Origin: Rhizobium sp. Root708
Lineage (GTDB): Bacteria; Pseudomonadota; Alphaproteobacteria; Rhizobiales; Rhizobiaceae
DNA: 64,000 nucleotides
NCBI RefSeq assembly: GCF_001429725.1
Contig: NZ_LMHV01000012.1
Span: forward strand, 248,875 to 312,874
Reading direction: 5' to 3'
Both the position numbers and the translations under genes were made by a program. Shown one piece after another: positions 22,540 through 29,242 of this stretch (position 1 is its first letter; every line of letters starts with the position of its first letter). The notes under the pieces are model-generated. The model was not told the origin of the DNA and ran no database searches. It saw only the letters and a list, made by a program, of their open reading frames with translations.

Positions 22540-22869
22540 ATGTTGAGTAAGATGCTTCGGGCCGTGGTGCTCGGCGCGGCGCTGGCGACGCTCGCCGGCT
22601 GCGTCGATCATGCGAACGCGCCGATCATGGTCCCGGTTGCCGCCCAGACGGATCCGCCGCTCAATCCTCCGGGTATCGCTCATACGATCTGCACGTCGGA
22701 TGGAAACTTCATGTATAATGAGGCGCGCAAGCAATTCGAGCTTCGGGCGCAGATGACGCAGACGCCGATCGACCCGAACAACGAGGAAGCGCAGGCGAGG
22801 GCTGCGGCCCGCCGGCAATATGTGACGTGCCTCTCCAGCCAGGGCTACCGCGCCGTCTACGACTACTGA
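22540..22869 (+). CDS. Small lipoprotein of unknown function
   Basis: A 109-aa protein with a signal peptide ending in a lipobox (ATLAGC), so Cys21 is probably lipidated. The mature part has cysteines at about 52 and 98, possibly disulphide-bonded, and an acidic, Ala-rich region (NNEEAQARAAARRQY). GGAGGG lies 5 nt before the ATG. No known family was recognised. Confidence 0.75.
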   Translation: MLSKMLRAVVLGAALATLAGCVDHANAPIMVPVAAQTDPPLNPPGIAHTICTSDGNFMYNEARKQFELRAQMTQTPIDPNNEEAQARAAARRQYVTCLSSQGYRAVYDY

Positions 22870-23368: not shown

Positions 23369-23377
23369 CTGTGCCAG

Positions 23378-23408
23378 AAAAGGCGGCCCAATCGGCCGCC
23401 TTTTTTTA
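23378..23408 (+). terminator. Strong terminator after the Gly/Tyr-rich protein
   Basis: An inverted repeat AAAGGCGGCC / GGCCGCCTTT with a 5-nt loop, followed by a run of seven Ts. A tract of ten Cs follows at 23413-23422. Confidence 0.85.
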
Positions 23409-23685
23409 ATCTCCCCCCCCCCAAATTTCTCTCGGCTGGCGATTCGCGGAAAGTAGGGATCGCGACGCGTTGATTTGGCCATGTCGTGACCCGAACGGAG
23501 AACTCCGACGCCTCGCAAATCGCAGTACGCCTATATTTTCATCATATGGTTGCCGAAAACATAGCAAAAGATCATGAAACGAGGCGCCGTTCGCACCGAT
23601 ACCCATTGAGATATGCGAAAAACGCATTGCTGCGTTGCGGTAATCTCCCTATTCCTGATCGAAACAATGGGGTATCTAATCTCTC
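23409..23685. other. Non-coding stretch upstream of the small RNA
   Basis: No convincing gene. It holds a C10 tract (23413-23422) and a small hairpin AACGCA-TTGC-TGCGTT near 23619-23634. A weak -10-like TATCTA at about 23672-23677 lies just upstream of the sRNA. One open frame crosses it but lacks a ribosome site and runs through the sRNA hairpins. Confidence 0.5.
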
Positions 23686-23806
23686 GAAGGCAGCGCACTC
23701 CTCCTCCCAGCGCTCCTTCATCGGACTGACAACACTCCTCCTCCCAGTTGTCAGTCAGGATCAAGAGCCCGGTGCACCTCCTCCCGCACCGGGCTCTTTT
23801 CTTTTC
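23686..23806 (+). ncRNA. alpha-r14/NfeR1-like trans-acting small RNA with anti-SD loops
   Basis: About 120 nt that fold into three consecutive hairpins. Hairpin 1: GAAGG-(c)-AGCGC/GCGCT-CCTTC, 23686-23719. Hairpin 2: a perfect 10-bp stem GACTGACAAC/GTTGTCAGTC, 23724-23756. Hairpin 3: a 13-bp stem AAGAGCCCGGTGC/GCACCGGGCTCTT, 23763-23798, followed by a TTTTCTTTT tail and so a terminator. The first two loops are identical (ACTCCTCCTCCCA) and the third is ACCTCCTCCC, so all three expose CCTCCTCCC, complementary to Shine-Dalgarno sequences. This is the hallmark of the rhizobial alpha-r14 family (NfeR1 in S. meliloti), which represses translation of many mRNAs, notably transporters. Its 5' end is estimated. 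Confidence 0.85.
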
Positions 23807-23956
23807 CGGACGATCTCATCGAAATCACTCTGGGCGATCCTCGTCCCTTGAGGCGATGCAAGCGCATTGCATTGCCGGCATGTCCGCGCGATCTTTCCTG
23901 CCCATACGTAGGATTGTCCACCCAGCGAAAATTCGCATAGGCAAACACTCGCGTTC

Positions 23957-23989
23957 TGATATATCACGTCCTCGACTACGTCAGTCGAG
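23957..23989 (+). promoter_or_regulatory. Palindromes upstream of the proline-racemase homologue
   Basis: TGATATATCA (23957-23966) is a perfect 10-bp palindrome. Just after it, CTCGACT-ACGTC-AGTCGAG (23971-23989) forms a 7-bp inverted repeat. Both lie within 60 nt of the gene start and are plausible operator sites, for example for a GntR/FCD regulator. No regulator is adjacent. Confidence 0.4.
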
Positions 23990-24012
23990 ACACTGGAGAT
24001 TGGAGTTCGCCG

Positions 24013-25050
24013 ATGAGATGGAAGCGCACCATTCAGCTTCTGGATGTTCATGCCGAGGGCGAGATCGGCAAGGTCGCCATTGGCGGCGTGCCGAAGATTC
24101 CCGGCAATACGGTTGCCGAGCAACTACACTGGCTGAACACCGATCCCAAGGGCCAGGAGCTTCGCCGCTTTCTCTGCCTCGAACCGCGTGGCGCTCCGAT
24201 CGGCTCGGTCAATCTCCTGCTGCCGCCGAAGCATCCGGAAGCGGATGCCGCCTTCATCATTCTTCAGCCGGATCAGGCGCATGCGAGTTCGGGGTCGAAT
24301 TCGATCTGCGTCACCACCGCTCTCCTCGAAGCCGGCATCGTCGAGATGCAGGAGCCTGAGACCATCGTGACGCTGGAAACGGCGGCCGGCCTTGTGAAGG
24401 CGCGGGCGACATGCCGGGACGGTCGTTGCGAGAAGGTGACGCTGACCATGGTGCCGTCGTTCGTCCACGAGCTTGATGTCCCGGTGGAAACGCCGGAGTG
24501 GGGCAGGATCACCGTCGACCTCTGCTATGGCGGCATTTTCTACGCCCTCGTAGATGTCGGTCAGGTTGGTCTCACCATTGAAAAGGCCAATGCCGCCGAG
24601 CTCGTGCGTGCGGGCATGGTTCTCAAGGATATCATCAACCGCAGCGTTTCGGTCGTTCATCCCGAAATCCCGGCTATCTCGGGCGTTGCCTACGTCATGT
24701 TCCGCGATCTGGAAGCGGACGGCACGGTGCGCACCTGCACCACGATGTGGCCCGGACGCGCCGATCGCTCGCCTTGCGGCACCGGCAACTCCGCCAATCT
24801 CGCCACCTTGCATGCACGAGGCAAGGCAAAGGTCGGCGACGTCTTCAAGTCGCGTTCGATCATCGATTCGGAGTTCGAGGTCGGCCTGCTCGCGGAAACG
24901 ACCGTTGCCGGGCGCCCGGCCATTATCCCGACGATATCAGGGCGCGGCTTCACCTTCGGGCTCTCGCAGGTGGCGCTTGATCCGTTCGATCCTCATCCGG
25001 GCGGTTTCGCGCTGACGGACGTGTGGGGCCCGTCAGCCGGCGAGATCTGA
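24013..25050 (+). CDS. Proline racemase-superfamily enzyme (hydroxyproline epimerase/dehydratase type)
   Basis: A 345-aa member of the proline racemase / 4-hydroxyproline epimerase / trans-3-hydroxyproline dehydratase superfamily. The two catalytic motifs are HASSGSNSI, where the first catalytic cysteine of racemases is replaced by Ser, and DRSPCGTGNSA, where the second cysteine is kept. A Ser-Cys pair points to the hydroxyproline-acting subgroups rather than to proline racemase; whether epimerase, dehydratase or both cannot be read here. It is monocistronic; no other hydroxyproline catabolic gene lies beside it. Convergent to the fucU-frcR pair. Confidence 0.88.
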   Translation: MRWKRTIQLLDVHAEGEIGKVAIGGVPKIPGNTVAEQLHWLNTDPKGQELRRFLCLEPRGAPIGSVNLLLPPKHPEADAAFIILQPDQAHASSGSNSICVTTALLEAGIVEMQEPETIVTLETAAGLVKARATCRDGRCEKVTLTMVPSFVHELDVPVETPEWGRITVDLCYGGIFYALVDVGQVGLTIEKANAAELVRAGMVLKDIINRSVSVVHPEIPAISGVAYVMFRDLEADGTVRTCTTMWPGRADRSPCGTGNSANLATLHARGKAKVGDVFKSRSIIDSEFEVGLLAETTVAGRPAIIPTISGRGFTFGLSQVALDPFDPHPGGFALTDVWGPSAGEI

Positions 25051-25052
25051 AC

Positions 25053-25535
25053 TCAGTAGGTAAAGGGATCGACCTCGGCCTTGTCAGTCGCGCTATCGCC
25101 GGGCTTGGCCGGGTAGATCACCCCCTTGCGCAGGATGATATTGGCGTAAAGCCGAGGCTCGCTGGTCTGGATCAGGGCGTGCGCCTCGCGAACTCGGCCG
25201 TAGAAATCCTGCCCGACCAGGGGGACGACCTTCTGGTGCGGCTCATGCCGCGCGCAGCAGTCGATCATCTCTTCGTGCACCGGGTCGAGCCGGTCGCGAT
25301 CGGCCTTCACCGTTGACCGAAAGATGGCTTCAGGGACGAAATCGTCGATCGGCAGCACGCTCAACACGGCATCGAGCACGGCCACGATCCCGTGGCCATC
25401 CAGGCGGATGAGCCGCCGGGCGTGTTCGACGCCCGGATAATTACCGTCGACAATGGCGATCTCGTCGCCGTGCCCCATGGAGCGCAGCGTCGACAGCAGT
25501 TCTGGTCCGAGAAGCGGATTAAGGCCCTTCAGCAT
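25053..25535 (-). CDS. RbsD/FucU-family sugar mutarotase next to frcR
   Basis: A 160-aa protein of the RbsD/FucU mutarotase family, which interconverts sugar anomers. Conserved residues are His22 and Asp30 in MGHGDEIAIVD and Tyr in RLYANIILRKGV. AAGGAGGT before the ATG lies inside the 3' end of frcR, and the genes overlap by 17 nt, so they are coupled. A role in anomerising fructose or a related sugar entering through FrcBCA is inferred. The short C-terminal tail after VIYP is variable. A second, divergent paralogue occurs at 57736. Confidence 0.88.
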   Translation of the reverse strand: MLKGLNPLLGPELLSTLRSMGHGDEIAIVDGNYPGVEHARRLIRLDGHGIVAVLDAVLSVLPIDDFVPEAIFRSTVKADRDRLDPVHEEMIDCCARHEPHQKVVPLVGQDFYGRVREAHALIQTSEPRLYANIILRKGVIYPAKPGDSATDKAEVDPFTY

Positions 25536-26766
25536 TGTCGACCTCCTTGAAGAGTACGTTCTGGTCCGTCAGGTATCGGGCAAAGATCGGCAGGCTTGCG
25601 CCGCCGATCGCGCGCGCCTGGGCACCGACCGCGCCTTCGATGATATCCGGCATGACGACACCCTGCAGGTCGAGCTTGTCGGCCTCGGCGATGGTCGCTT
25701 TGACGATCCGCTCGCGCACCCAATCCGGAAAGCCGCCATCGATGACAGCGGCGCTGAAGTCGATGATCGAGGCGGCGGCGACGATCGCCTGCGCCAATGC
25801 TCTTGCTGTATCCTGTATCCAGTTCTCCAGCGGTTCGCCGAAATCGATCCAGTCGTCGGCCGAATACCAGAGAGGCTGAGGATCGATGTCGCGCTCGCGC
25901 AGCATGTTCTCGAGGACGAAGATCGATGCGACTTCGAGAAGCTGCAGCGTCTCGCCGTTCTTGCCGCGAACGGGAAGGGGGCCGATGGCGCCGGCCGTGC
26001 CGGTCCGCCCGGAAAAGATCGCCGAATTCAGCACGATGCCGCCGCCGATAAAGGAGCCGATGAAGAAGTAGACGAAGTCGGGGTAGGAGGGCCCATTGCC
26101 GAACACCAGTTCCGCGCCGCAGGCGCTGGTCGCATCGTTCTGCAGGAACACGGGCAGCGAAAGGCGTGCCGCGACCTCCGTTTGCAGGTCCACATCCCGC
26201 CAGACGTCCATCGCGCCCTTGGGAGACCCGACTTCCTCCTCCCAGTTCCAGAGCTCGAACGGAGCAGCGATGCCAACGCCCGCGATGCGGCTGCGCTCTT
26301 CTGCGCTGAGGCGGGCCTCCAGTTCGGTAATGCCCGTCGTGATGAAATCCAGGAATTCGTCGGGCAATGGATAGGCGTAGGTCTTGCGCTTCTGCATGCG
26401 AATCCGGCCGACGAAATCCATTAGCACGAGATCGGCGCTGCGCCGGCCCATCTTGACCCCGAACGAGTAGACGGCATCCGGATTGAGCCGCATCGGAATG
26501 GAAGGCTGGCCGACACGTCCGCGCACCGGCTCGCCCCGGGAAAGCAGCCCTTCCTTCTCCAGTTGCCGCATGATGACCGAAACGGTTTGTGCCGAAAGCC
26601 CGGTTTTACGAGCAATATCCGCCTTCGACTGGGAACCGTGAAGGCGCACCAGCGATAGCACGAGCCGCTCGTTATAGGCGCGCACTCTGATCTGGTTCGC
26701 GCCACCCGCTGGACTGAGAATCGGTTGCTGAACCGCCCCTTGAGTCGGTCCGCCTATCGACGACAT
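25519..26766 (-). CDS. frcR: ROK-family transcriptional repressor of the fructose transporter (FrcR-like)
   Basis: A 415-aa ROK protein with an N-terminal winged helix (about 28-90: SKADIARKTGLSAQTVSVIM) and a ROK sugar-sensing domain (GVGIAAPFELW, FFIGSFIGGGIVLN). It is divergent from frcB with a 235-bp shared region, the usual place for a local regulator, so repression of frcBCAK relieved by sugar is likely. GGGAGGAG precedes the ATG. The kinase active site is not obviously intact. Confidence 0.88.
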   Translation of the reverse strand: MSSIGGPTQGAVQQPILSPAGGANQIRVRAYNERLVLSLVRLHGSQSKADIARKTGLSAQTVSVIMRQLEKEGLLSRGEPVRGRVGQPSIPMRLNPDAVYSFGVKMGRRSADLVLMDFVGRIRMQKRKTYAYPLPDEFLDFITTGITELEARLSAEERSRIAGVGIAAPFELWNWEEEVGSPKGAMDVWRDVDLQTEVAARLSLPVFLQNDATSACGAELVFGNGPSYPDFVYFFIGSFIGGGIVLNSAIFSGRTGTAGAIGPLPVRGKNGETLQLLEVASIFVLENMLRERDIDPQPLWYSADDWIDFGEPLENWIQDTARALAQAIVAAASIIDFSAAVIDGGFPDWVRERIVKATIAEADKLDLQGVVMPDIIEGAVGAQARAIGGASLPIFARYLTDQNVLFKEVDNAEGP

Positions 26767-26850
26767 TGGCCACTCCTCCCGTTTATCGGCCTATGCGCTA
26801 TTTTCTCCAAACATGCCACACGGAATTAATAATTCAATTGGATTTATTTA

Positions 26851-26879: not shown

Positions 26880-27001
26880 TGCCCTCGTCAAAGGGCACGG
26901 AACGGTCTGGAGGAGGCCGTCGGCGAGACTGCAGGCGTTCTCGTGCTCGTTTAAATCCGGCACCGCCAGGGGGTGGGTCGGCAAATCTCTGGGAGGAGTA
27001 A

Positions 27002-28027
27002 ATGAAGAAATCAGTGCTTTCAGCCGCGCTCGGCGCGCTTGCCCTCGGCGTCGCATTCTCGGCGCCGGCAATGGCCGCGGATGTATCCGCCTGCCTCATC
27101 ACCAAGACCGACACCAATCCCTTCTTCGTCAAGATGAAGGAAGGCGCGACGGCAAAGGCCAAGGAACTCGGCGTAACGCTGAAGTCCTATGCCGGCAAGA
27201 TCGATGGTGACAGCGAAAGCCAGGTGGCTGCGATCGAAAGCTGCATCGCCGATGGCGCCAAGGGTATCCTGATCACCGCCTCCGACACCAAGGGCATCGT
27301 TCCCTCGGTCAAGAAGGCGCGTGACGCCGGTGTCCTCGTCATCGCTCTCGACACTCCGCTCGATCCGGCCGACTCCGCCGATGCGACCTTCGCCACCGAC
27401 AACCTGCTCGCCGGCAAGCTGATCGGCCAGTGGGCGAAGGAAACCATGGGCGACAAGGCCAAGGACGCAAAGGTTGGCTTCCTCGACCTGACGCCGTCGC
27501 AGCCGACCGTCGACGTTCTGCGTGACCAGGGCTTCATGATGGGCTTCGGCATTGATCCGAAGGATCCGAACAAGATCGGCGACGAAGACGACGCTCGCAT
27601 CGTCGGCCACGACGTCACCAACGGCAACGAAGAGGGCGGCCGCAAGGCTATGGAAAACCTTCTCCAGAAGGATCCGAGCATCAACGTCATCCACACGATC
27701 AACGAACCGGCCGCAGTTGGCGCTTATCAGGCGCTGAAGGCTGTCGGCATGGAAAAGAACGTCCTGATCGTTTCGGTTGACGGCGGTTGCCCGGGCGTCA
27801 AGTCCGTCGCTGACGGCGTGATCGGCGCCACCTCGCAGCAGTATCCGCTGATGATGGCGTCGCTCGGCATCGAAGCGATCAAGAAGTTCGCCGACAGCGG
27901 CGAAAAGCCGAAGCCGACCGAAGGCAAGTCCTTCTTCGACACCGGCGTTTCGCTGGTCACCGACAAGCCGGTGTCAGGCGTGAAGTCGATCGACACGAAG
28001 GAAGGCACTGCCAAGTGCTGGGGCTAA
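27002..28027 (+). CDS. frcB: Fructose ABC transporter, periplasmic binding protein FrcB
   Basis: Captures fructose (and, in S. meliloti, ribose and mannose) in the periplasm. It is 341 aa with a signal peptide cleaved after PAMA (about 25) and a ribose-type type I periplasmic binding fold ([20 protein letters not shown] at the N-terminus; [13 protein letters not shown] near 260). GGGAGGAG lies 5 nt before the ATG. It is first in frcB-frcC-frcA-frcK, and a strong hairpin follows. Confidence 0.95.
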
Positions 28028-28075: not shown

Positions 28076-28177
28076 TTTCGACCGACCAGCCACTGTCTCA
28101 GAAACCGGCGCGCAAAGACCGACACGACATGAGCAGGGCTTCCGCGCGCGGTTTGGCGCGAAAGCGGAGGAGGAAAA

Positions 28178-29242
28178 ATGACCGGAGCACAGGAATTCGA
28201 ACAGACGCTTGAGAGCAGCGACAAGAGTGTCGCGTCATTCGATCACCAGGGCGTACCATTGGTGAAGCGCGCTCAACACTTCCTGCACTCGACGCCGGCG
28301 GCCGTGCCGCTGATCGTGCTGGTGCTGTCAATCATCATCTTTGGCGTCGCGATCGGCGGACGTTTCTTCTCGTCCTACACGCTGACGCTCATTCTTCAGC
28401 AGATCGCCATCGTCGGTATCCTCGGCGCGGCCCAGACGCTCGTCATCCTGACGGCCGGCATCGATCTGTCGATCGGTGTCATCATGGTCATCTCGGCGGT
28501 GATCATGGGCAACTGTGCGATCACCTACGGCATTCCGACGCCGATCGCCGTGCTCGCCGGACTGGTGGTCGGCGGCCTCTGCGGATTGCTGAACGGTTTT
28601 CTGGTGGCAATCATGAGGCTGCCGCCGTTCATCGTAACGCTCGGCACATGGAACATCGTCATGGCGACGAATTTCATCTACTCAGCCAACGAGACGATCC
28701 GCGATACCGATGTCGACGCGCAGGCGCCCCTGCTGCATTTCTTCGCGATCAGCTTCCGGTTCGGAAGTGCCGTGCTGACGCTTGGCGTCATCGCCATGGT
28801 GCTGCTCGTGCTTCTCCTTTGGTACATTCTCAATCACACGGCCTGGGGCCGGCATGTCTACGCGGTCGGCGACGACTCCGAGGCCGCCAAGCTCTCCGGT
28901 ATCCAGACGAAAAGCGTTCTGATGACGGTCTATACGGTTTCCGGCGTCATCGCTGCCTTCGCCGCCTGGGTTTCCATCGGCCGCAACGGTTCGATCTCGC
29001 CGTCTTCGGCGGTCACGGACTACAATCTTCAGGCCATCACCGCGACGGTGATCGGCGGTATCTCGCTCTTCGGTGGTCGCGGCTCGATCCTCGGCACGCT
29101 GTTCGGCGCGATGATCGTCGGCGTCGTCTCCATGGGCCTCAATATGCTCGGCGCCGATCCCCAGTGGAAGGTGTTGCTCACCGGCGTGCTCATCATCGCC
29201 GCAGTCGCAATCGACCAATGGATCAGAAAGGTGTCGGTGTAA
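28178..29242 (+). CDS. frcC: Fructose ABC transporter permease FrcC
   Basis: A 354-aa membrane permease of the ribose-transporter (RbsC/BPD_transp_2) family, with about nine to ten hydrophobic helices and the family signature near LTAGIDLSIGVIMVISAV. The N-terminal 60 residues are hydrophilic. GGAGGAGG precedes the ATG. It ends 1 nt before frcA and forms the channel of the FrcBCA importer. Confidence 0.94.
   Translation: MTGAQEFEQTLESSDKSVASFDHQGVPLVKRAQHFLHSTPAAVPLIVLVLSIIIFGVAIGGRFFSSYTLTLILQQIAIVGILGAAQTLVILTAGIDLSIGVIMVISAVIMGNCAITYGIPTPIAVLAGLVVGGLCGLLNGFLVAIMRLPPFIVTLGTWNIVMATNFIYSANETIRDTDVDAQAPLLHFFAISFRFGSAVLTLGVIAMVLLVLLLWYILNHTAWGRHVYAVGDDSEAAKLSGIQTKSVLMTVYTVSGVIAAFAAWVSIGRNGSISPSSAVTDYNLQAITATVIGGISLFGGRGSILGTLFGAMIVGVVSMGLNMLGADPQWKVLLTGVLIIAAVAIDQWIRKVSV

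Follow-up and report, generated by a model that had tools for sequence, protein, structure and literature searches.

Rhizobium sp. Root708 carries, within the 64,000-nucleotide stretch of DNA analysed here (the window), a genuine, well-formed and conserved member of the ar14/NfeR1 family of small RNAs, a kind of RNA that has already been described. Very probably it is a trans-acting small RNA under LsrB-type activation, of which the anti-Shine-Dalgarno (aSD) loops block the ribosome-binding sites mainly of ABC-transporter mRNAs. The data on this copy comprise its sequence, structure, covariation, synteny, motif positions and complementarity to possible targets; its expression, the acting regulator and the repressed mRNAs are what we infer, transcription, binding of LsrB and NtrC, and repression through the loops having been described in publications on the Sinorhizobium meliloti relative.

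Identity and structure of the small RNA

The Rfam covariance model of ar14 (RF02344) matches the window over the full length of the model (positions 1–123 of 123; E-value 4.7e-21) with 117.2 bits, which is twice the gathering score of 58.8, and the only other Rfam matches above cut-off in the window are two tRNAs. This search upholds the assignment to the alpha-r14/NfeR1 family that had been made in a first-pass annotation from the sequence alone. The RNA itself also stands, with its extent, originally given as 23686–23806, slightly displaced, as the Rfam match starts six bases further upstream and ends five bases earlier (23680–23801; Table 1).

The region 23686–23806 folds as three hairpins with -57.8 kcal/mol (z -7.96), and none of 200 shuffled sequences was as stable. 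Each of the three loops contains CCUCCUCCC, as had been observed, while the stems are variable. The identity of loops 1 and 2 over 13 nt is equally clear, since ACTCCTCCTCCCA occurs twice and constitutes these two loops; CACCTCCTCCCGC is found around loop 3. The third loop (ACCTCCTCCC) is closed by a GC stem and followed by TTTTCTTTT, the T-rich terminator tail that had been recognized on the last stem. A consensus terminator scan of positions 23370–24012 found no terminator, and missed hairpin 3 because the scan allows loops of up to 8 nt and loop 3 has 10 nt.

The RNA is located in a gap of 644 bp between the end of one ORF (23368) and the start of the next (24013). A coding region was ruled out, since none of the five mechanical ORFs running across the RNA matches a Pfam family at E ≤ 0.001. 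The antisense strand also folds (z -5.78), like any strong inverted repeat, and was discarded as a real feature because it is the forward strand that has the z of -7.96, the Rfam match and the T-tail. A two-loop RNA of the CcsR or AbcR type was likewise ruled out, as ar14 is the sole small RNA family above cut-off. Elsewhere in the gap, at 23381–23408, a terminator-like repeat (AAGGCGGCC...GGCCGCCTT) with a T-run lies just 3' of an ORF of 123 residues; this repeat is absent from the output of the consensus terminator scan of 23370–24012, and the ORF has no Pfam match, yet is conserved beside the ar14 RNA.

Table 1. Features of the ar14 locus and its predicted targets (positions in the window)
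Feature	Position	Strand	Basis
ar14-family trans-acting small RNA (very probable role), three aSD hairpins and intrinsic terminator	23680..23801	+	Rfam, fold
Hairpin 1, loop ACUCCUCCUCCCA	23686..23719	+	Rfam, fold, covariation (helix 1)
Hairpin 2, loop ACUCCUCCUCCCA	23724..23756	+	Rfam, fold, covariation (helix 2)
Hairpin 3 = terminator, loop ACCUCCUCCC, GC-rich, T-tail	23763..23798	+	Rfam, fold, -25.5 kcal/mol
LsrB-type box TGCG-N6-GCAT (predicted)	23614..23627	+	One letter off TGCA-N6-GCAT; motif and position as reported in PMC10746234
Candidate core promoter CCTATTC-N17-GTATCT	23648..23677	+	Weak by letters, conserved by position
frcB start region, predicted target, CTGGGAGGAG before ATG 27002	26989..27004	+	10 nt perfect complement, -20.7 kcal/mol
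frcC start region, predicted target, GGAGGAGGA before ATG 28178	28166..28180	+	9 nt perfect complement, -18.8 kcal/mol
Divergent ROK-family regulator (25519–26766), start region, predicted target	26764..26781	-	9 nt perfect complement, -21.8 kcal/mol

Conservation and covariation

Of 89 loci, 25 have in common with the window one or more of three neighbouring genes, namely the ORFs at 22540 and 22997 and the proline racemase gene at 24013 (Pfam PF05544), and are referred to as window-type. The promoter block and the three hairpins are conserved over these 25 syntenic loci, while the DNA further upstream drifts. Their RNAs have a mean column identity of 95% in the alignment, and in the 17 distinct rows 99.5% of the pair cells form standard pairs. 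Seven of the 33 pairs have changed on both sides, a number as high as in none of 500 shuffles, and slid controls gave 34–46% paired cells with at most one pair changed on both sides.

A wide set, in which the window copy was combined with 61 further loci of the family to give 57 distinct rows, showed 92.5% paired cells and 26 of the 33 pairs changed on both sides, against 29–49% and 6–10 pairs in slid controls. Both-side changes amounted to 277 cells, compared to a shuffled mean of 82.5; for further pair types, the observed value was reached by 5 of 500 shuffles. Helices 2 and 3 are paired in 99.6% and 97.9% of the cells. Helix 1 is the loosest, with 78.2% of cells paired and 22% unpaired, and with one pair broken in 39 of 57 rows. 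Throughout the wide set, loops 1 and 2 contain CCTCCTCCC without exception, although the rows were placed by loop sequence, so that the invariance of loop 1, and partly that of loop 2, is by choice. In loop 3 the invariance is limited to TCCTCCC, because RNAs of the type found on contig 1 of the same genome (see below) have TCCTCCCCC there. The initial impression of equal loops on differing stems extends to relatives, in which the loops are kept and the stems covary; the disappearance of loops or of compensatory stem changes, named beforehand as a refutation, is not seen.

Copies and distribution of ar14

Five ar14 copies score above cut-off in the genome: the window copy, one each on contig 1 and contig 34, and two on contig 41. 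The latter two (L002 and L005, at about 100.8 and 93.7 kb) are 7 kb apart, and both have a fourth aSD hairpin upstream, resulting in a four-loop form. Of the two fourth loops, that of L005 (CCTCCTCCC) is intact and that of L002 (CCTCTTCCC) is degenerate, and a related element, GCAT-x-GCTGCCTTGCA, is found upstream of both. Another 13 of the 18 matches in this genome at E ≤ 10 are below cut-off and were not counted as copies (three were inspected, L006–L008). One of these, L006 (contig 41:160924–161027), combines a weak ar14 match of 35.9 bits with strong hairpins that have CCCCUCCUCG- and CUCUCCUCCCC-type loops, and is possibly a divergent aSD RNA.

At E ≤ 0.001, ar14 matches were found in all 37 genomes of the same genus (including the present one), with 3–9 matches each, and in 46 of the 61 genomes overall, in 38 of which they are above cut-off. 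The 15 genomes without a match all belong to other families of the order. None of the 14 control genomes has a match at this threshold; at a lax E ≤ 10, nine of them give matches, none above cut-off.

Promoter region

Two boxes are reported in the promoter of NfeR1, TGCA-N6-GCAT for LsrB, spanning about -72 to -57, and TGC-N11-GCA for NtrC, spanning about -116 to -101; the NtrC motif is described as not evident in Agrobacterium or Brucella homologs (PMC10746234). In the window, the predicted LsrB-type site spans about -71 to -57 relative to the inferred start at about 23684. No strict NtrC box is present upstream of the window copy, the nearest look-alike being TGC-N10-GCA at 23551–23566. An LsrB-type box at -71 was identified in 25/25 window-type loci, a count biased by those loci that were found with the promoter pattern GCATTGCTGCG (none of the 52 named loci in that set is from S. 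meliloti); the six that came from the Rfam search alone (L014, L017, L026, L028, L029 and L037) all have the box. A strict NtrC box was found in two of the 25 (L026 and L055), which are identical over 400 nt, so that the box occurs in one of 21 distinct loci.

The sibling copy on contig 1 (L003, 343032–343151), flanked by ORFs for a solute-binding protein (SBP_bac_11) and a cytidylyltransferase-like protein, has both an NtrC-type box (TGCTGAATAAATCAGCA) at -114 and an LsrB-type box at -71. Among the loci syntenic with this copy, the NtrC box is present in 11/15, i.e. 10/10 of a first set and 1/5 of the Rfam-search loci (L021), and a strict LsrB-type box in 7/15; the pattern suggests that the NtrC box has been gained or lost within this one syntenic line. 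The loci L011, L016, L024 and L032 have the contig 1 synteny without a strict NtrC box; an LsrB-type box is present in three of them. The difference between the two lines in NtrC boxes (11/15 versus 2/25; Fisher P 3.5e-5) was calculated over genomes that are related and not independent, and is not significant for the 13 loci found without the promoter pattern (2/6 versus 1/7, P 0.56). Of the remaining loci, the NtrC pattern and the LsrB-type box were seen in 3/25 and 23/25 of the first set, and in 1/18 and 12/18 (at -70) of a later-checked set. The other three copies in the genome itself (L002, L004 and L005) have neither box at the LsrB and NtrC places.

The candidate core promoter (Table 1) shares 4/7 and 4/6 letters with the published CTTAGAC-N17-CTATAT. 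A promoter scan of 23370–24012 with a model of the E. coli type found none. The literal published core with a loop behind it occurs in none of 247 genomes of the family and was of no use as a marker.

As far as can be read from sequence, there is a tendency for the window line to have an LsrB-type box without an NtrC box, and for the contig 1 line mostly to have the latter, and the window copy may lie outside the NtrC loop. Since it has no NtrC box, this copy probably responds to the LsrB signal and not to NtrC. The accessible parts of the NfeR1 literature contain no statement that we could find on sibling copies within one genome that are without an NtrC box.

Predicted targets

Near the RNA lie genes that we take to be those of a sugar transporter, frcB and frcC, names adopted from the first-pass annotation, and frcA, assigned in this analysis; the Pfam matches (periplasmic binding protein, BPD_transp_2 permease and ABC ATPase) fit these names. 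The suggestion that the loops could pair with the frcB and frcC leaders is borne out at the level of prediction, by uninterrupted runs of 10 and 9 Watson-Crick pairs, respectively. A comparable match is predicted for the divergent regulator, which belongs to the ROK family according to Pfam. Contiguous Watson-Crick matches to the loops are 5 nt for frcA, 5 nt for the proline racemase gene and 6 nt for ntrB, an ORF that was taken as such because it follows dusB and reads like a histidine kinase. From 600 random ATG contexts in the window, five reach -18.8 kcal/mol and none reaches -21.8 kcal/mol. When 55 window genes from our own gene calling were ranked, frcB was lowest at -23.8 kcal/mol, a value obtained with an in-frame GTG that lies 12 nt into the gene; this ranking is only supportive, as the gene calling was a rough codon-usage script with several start codons per gene.

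A genome-wide search for TGGGAGGAG-N(3-12)-ATG gave 17 matches, including frcB, compared to one for the reversed pattern. Thirteen of the 17 sites open a frame of at least 100 residues, and a Pfam scan of all 13 identified five solute-binding proteins, one ABC ATPase, one ABC-2 permease and five members of other families, with one frame having no match. The three solute-binding families have 51, 38 and 9 genome matches above cut-off, or about 98 of a guessed 6000 genes, in which the Peripla_BP_4 matches may include some regulators. The corresponding enrichment (5/17, binomial 6e-6) refers to families chosen after seeing the matches. With a control Shine-Dalgarno (SD) sequence, TAAGGAGA, 13 matches were found, and 12 frames scanned contained one solute-binding protein; the proportions 5/17 and 1/13 do not differ significantly (Fisher 0.20). 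The pattern GGGAGGAGG-N-ATG (10 matches versus 4 reversed, among which one site is listed double and another is antisense to an ar14 copy of the genome itself) was rejected as too weak alone. In frcB genes of the same genus, GGGAGGA is present in 23/23 and the full TGGGAGGAG in 13/23, the other 10 sites being without the full 9-nt match. To some degree, any strong SD is bound to be complementary to the loops.

One TGGGAGGAG site (L134, contig 6:56267) has an ATG that opens only four codons; a Peripla_BP_4 match, divided between two overlapping frames, begins shortly after it, so either the start is elsewhere or the gene is broken.

Comparison with known small RNAs

The ar14 family and the way in which it acts (NfeR1, SmelA075/SmelA099 and the "cuckoo" RNAs) have been published (PMC10746234, PMC7143759, PMC3927594; see also PMC5596092), and the window RNA shows no family-defining difference from ar14 (RF02344) as tested, with the same full-length match, three aSD hairpins and a 3' terminator hairpin. 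Groups with three and four hairpins and CCUCCUCCC loops have been suggested to be one family acting on ribosome-binding sites (PMC3927594), and SmelA075 was strongly detected after a shift to 40 °C (PMC2873474). The four-hairpin SmelA099 form and the "cuckoo" RNAs are built from the same repeated aSD loop module; the window copy has three modules, not four, whereas the contig 41 copies have four, as in the SmelA099 form.

NfeR1 of S. meliloti (SmelC397/Smr14C2), which we compared by its description, is reported as an Hfq-independent transcript of about 115–123 nt (PMC10746234, PMC8844928). It shares with the window RNA the three-hairpin fold, the aSD loops, a similar length and an LsrB-type box at about -71, but the window copy lacks TGC-N11-GCA and its core departs from CTTAGAC-N17-CTATAT. 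Moreover, ntrB is a proven NfeR1 target in S. meliloti with 8 nt of pairing (PMC10746234), against the 6 contiguous nt between the window RNA and ntrB. AbcR1/AbcR2 (ar15) are described as similar in the aSD silencing of ABC-transporter mRNAs and in LsrB control (PMC10746234, PMC7143759, PMC8844928), and as different in having two aSD motifs and being Hfq-bound. NfeR1 and AbcR are reported to have a common target, SMc03121 (PMC8844928); the term 'frc' is absent from the main text of that paper. A sponge RNA in Caulobacter that acts on aR8-family small RNAs (PMC12559287) represents a different family.

The first-pass annotation had further invoked a role like that of NfeR1 in rhizobia, including nodulation. 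Family membership holds, with the likeness limited in that NfeR1 is one of six S. meliloti copies and the window copy has no NtrC box. The published phenotype concerns salt and nodulation (PMC7143759). Nodulation is a property of a relative: no nifH (TIGR01287) was found above cut-off in the 99.98% complete genome (best score 27.3 bits versus 394), and the nodulation role of NfeR1 should therefore not be carried over to the window RNA.

Proposed mechanism and alternative explanations

We propose that an LsrB-type activator would drive transcription of the RNA on the forward strand, with the transcript starting at about 23684 and ending at the third hairpin, at about 23801. The start of translation would then be blocked by the three exposed CCUCCUCCC loops, through pairing with G-rich ribosome-binding sites that belong mainly to ABC-transporter mRNAs, with the nearby frcB predicted to be among the best-matching targets in the genome.

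Alternatively, the window copy could be a paralog that has been retained by descent and is hardly or not at all expressed, with another copy such as that at contig 1:343032 doing the work. In S. meliloti, only one of six copies was reported to be reliably detected by Northern blot (PMC7143759), and both boxes of the NfeR1 promoter are present at the contig 1 copy; still, the joint conservation of promoter block and hairpins over 25 syntenic loci with drifting DNA further upstream, and the compensatory changes within the window lineage, make a silent copy improbable. It is more improbable still that the main action of the RNA is on ribosomes or that of a decoy, in competition with 16S rRNA for SD sequences in general, and not on chosen mRNAs. 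Its loops do resemble the 16S anti-SD, and any strong SD matches them in part, but pairing of frcB, frcC and the ROK gene is calculated at -20.7, -18.8 and -21.8 kcal/mol for the loops, compared to -11.3, -12.1 and -12.6 kcal/mol for an assumed 16S 3' end sequence, and published target silencing requires the loops (PMC10746234).

A third possibility, compatible with the trans-acting repressor preferred here, is preferential control of the linked frc locus as a local unit of small RNA and target. About 3.2 kb separate the ar14 copy and frcB in the window; at least 17 of 23 genomes from the same genus have some ar14 copy on the contig that carries frcB, no more than 30 kb from that gene; and frcB, frcC and the ROK regulator have matches of 9–10 nt. 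Against this, the linkage count covers any ar14 copy, not necessarily one of the window type in every genome, the distances range from 3 to 28 kb and may reflect general synteny, and among the matches listed the copies are on other contigs in five genomes and far away on the same contig in another (G018). Furthermore, frcA is without a site (5 nt), and the other 16 TGGGAGGAG sites are all on contigs other than that of frcB. Such a local unit is unlikely, if less so than a silent copy.

Significance

What is new lies only in detail, namely the kind of promoter that precedes this copy, the sibling copies, and a strong predicted target, frcB. The supposed mode of action of the family is left unchanged, a clean and syntenically conserved member is added to the published family, and frcB is named as a specific target for testing. 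A more speculative reading, which we regard as rather doubtful though better placed than the alternatives above, is that the siblings are split by promoter, with the contig 1 line mostly keeping its NtrC box and serving the nitrogen feedback loop and the window line (LsrB, no NtrC) serving sugar uptake, with frcB, frcC and the ROK gene among its targets. If true, one and the same three-loop RNA would be linked to a different signal depending on the copy, and promoters that differ in the NtrC box suggest a testable reason why Rhizobium keeps 3–9 copies.
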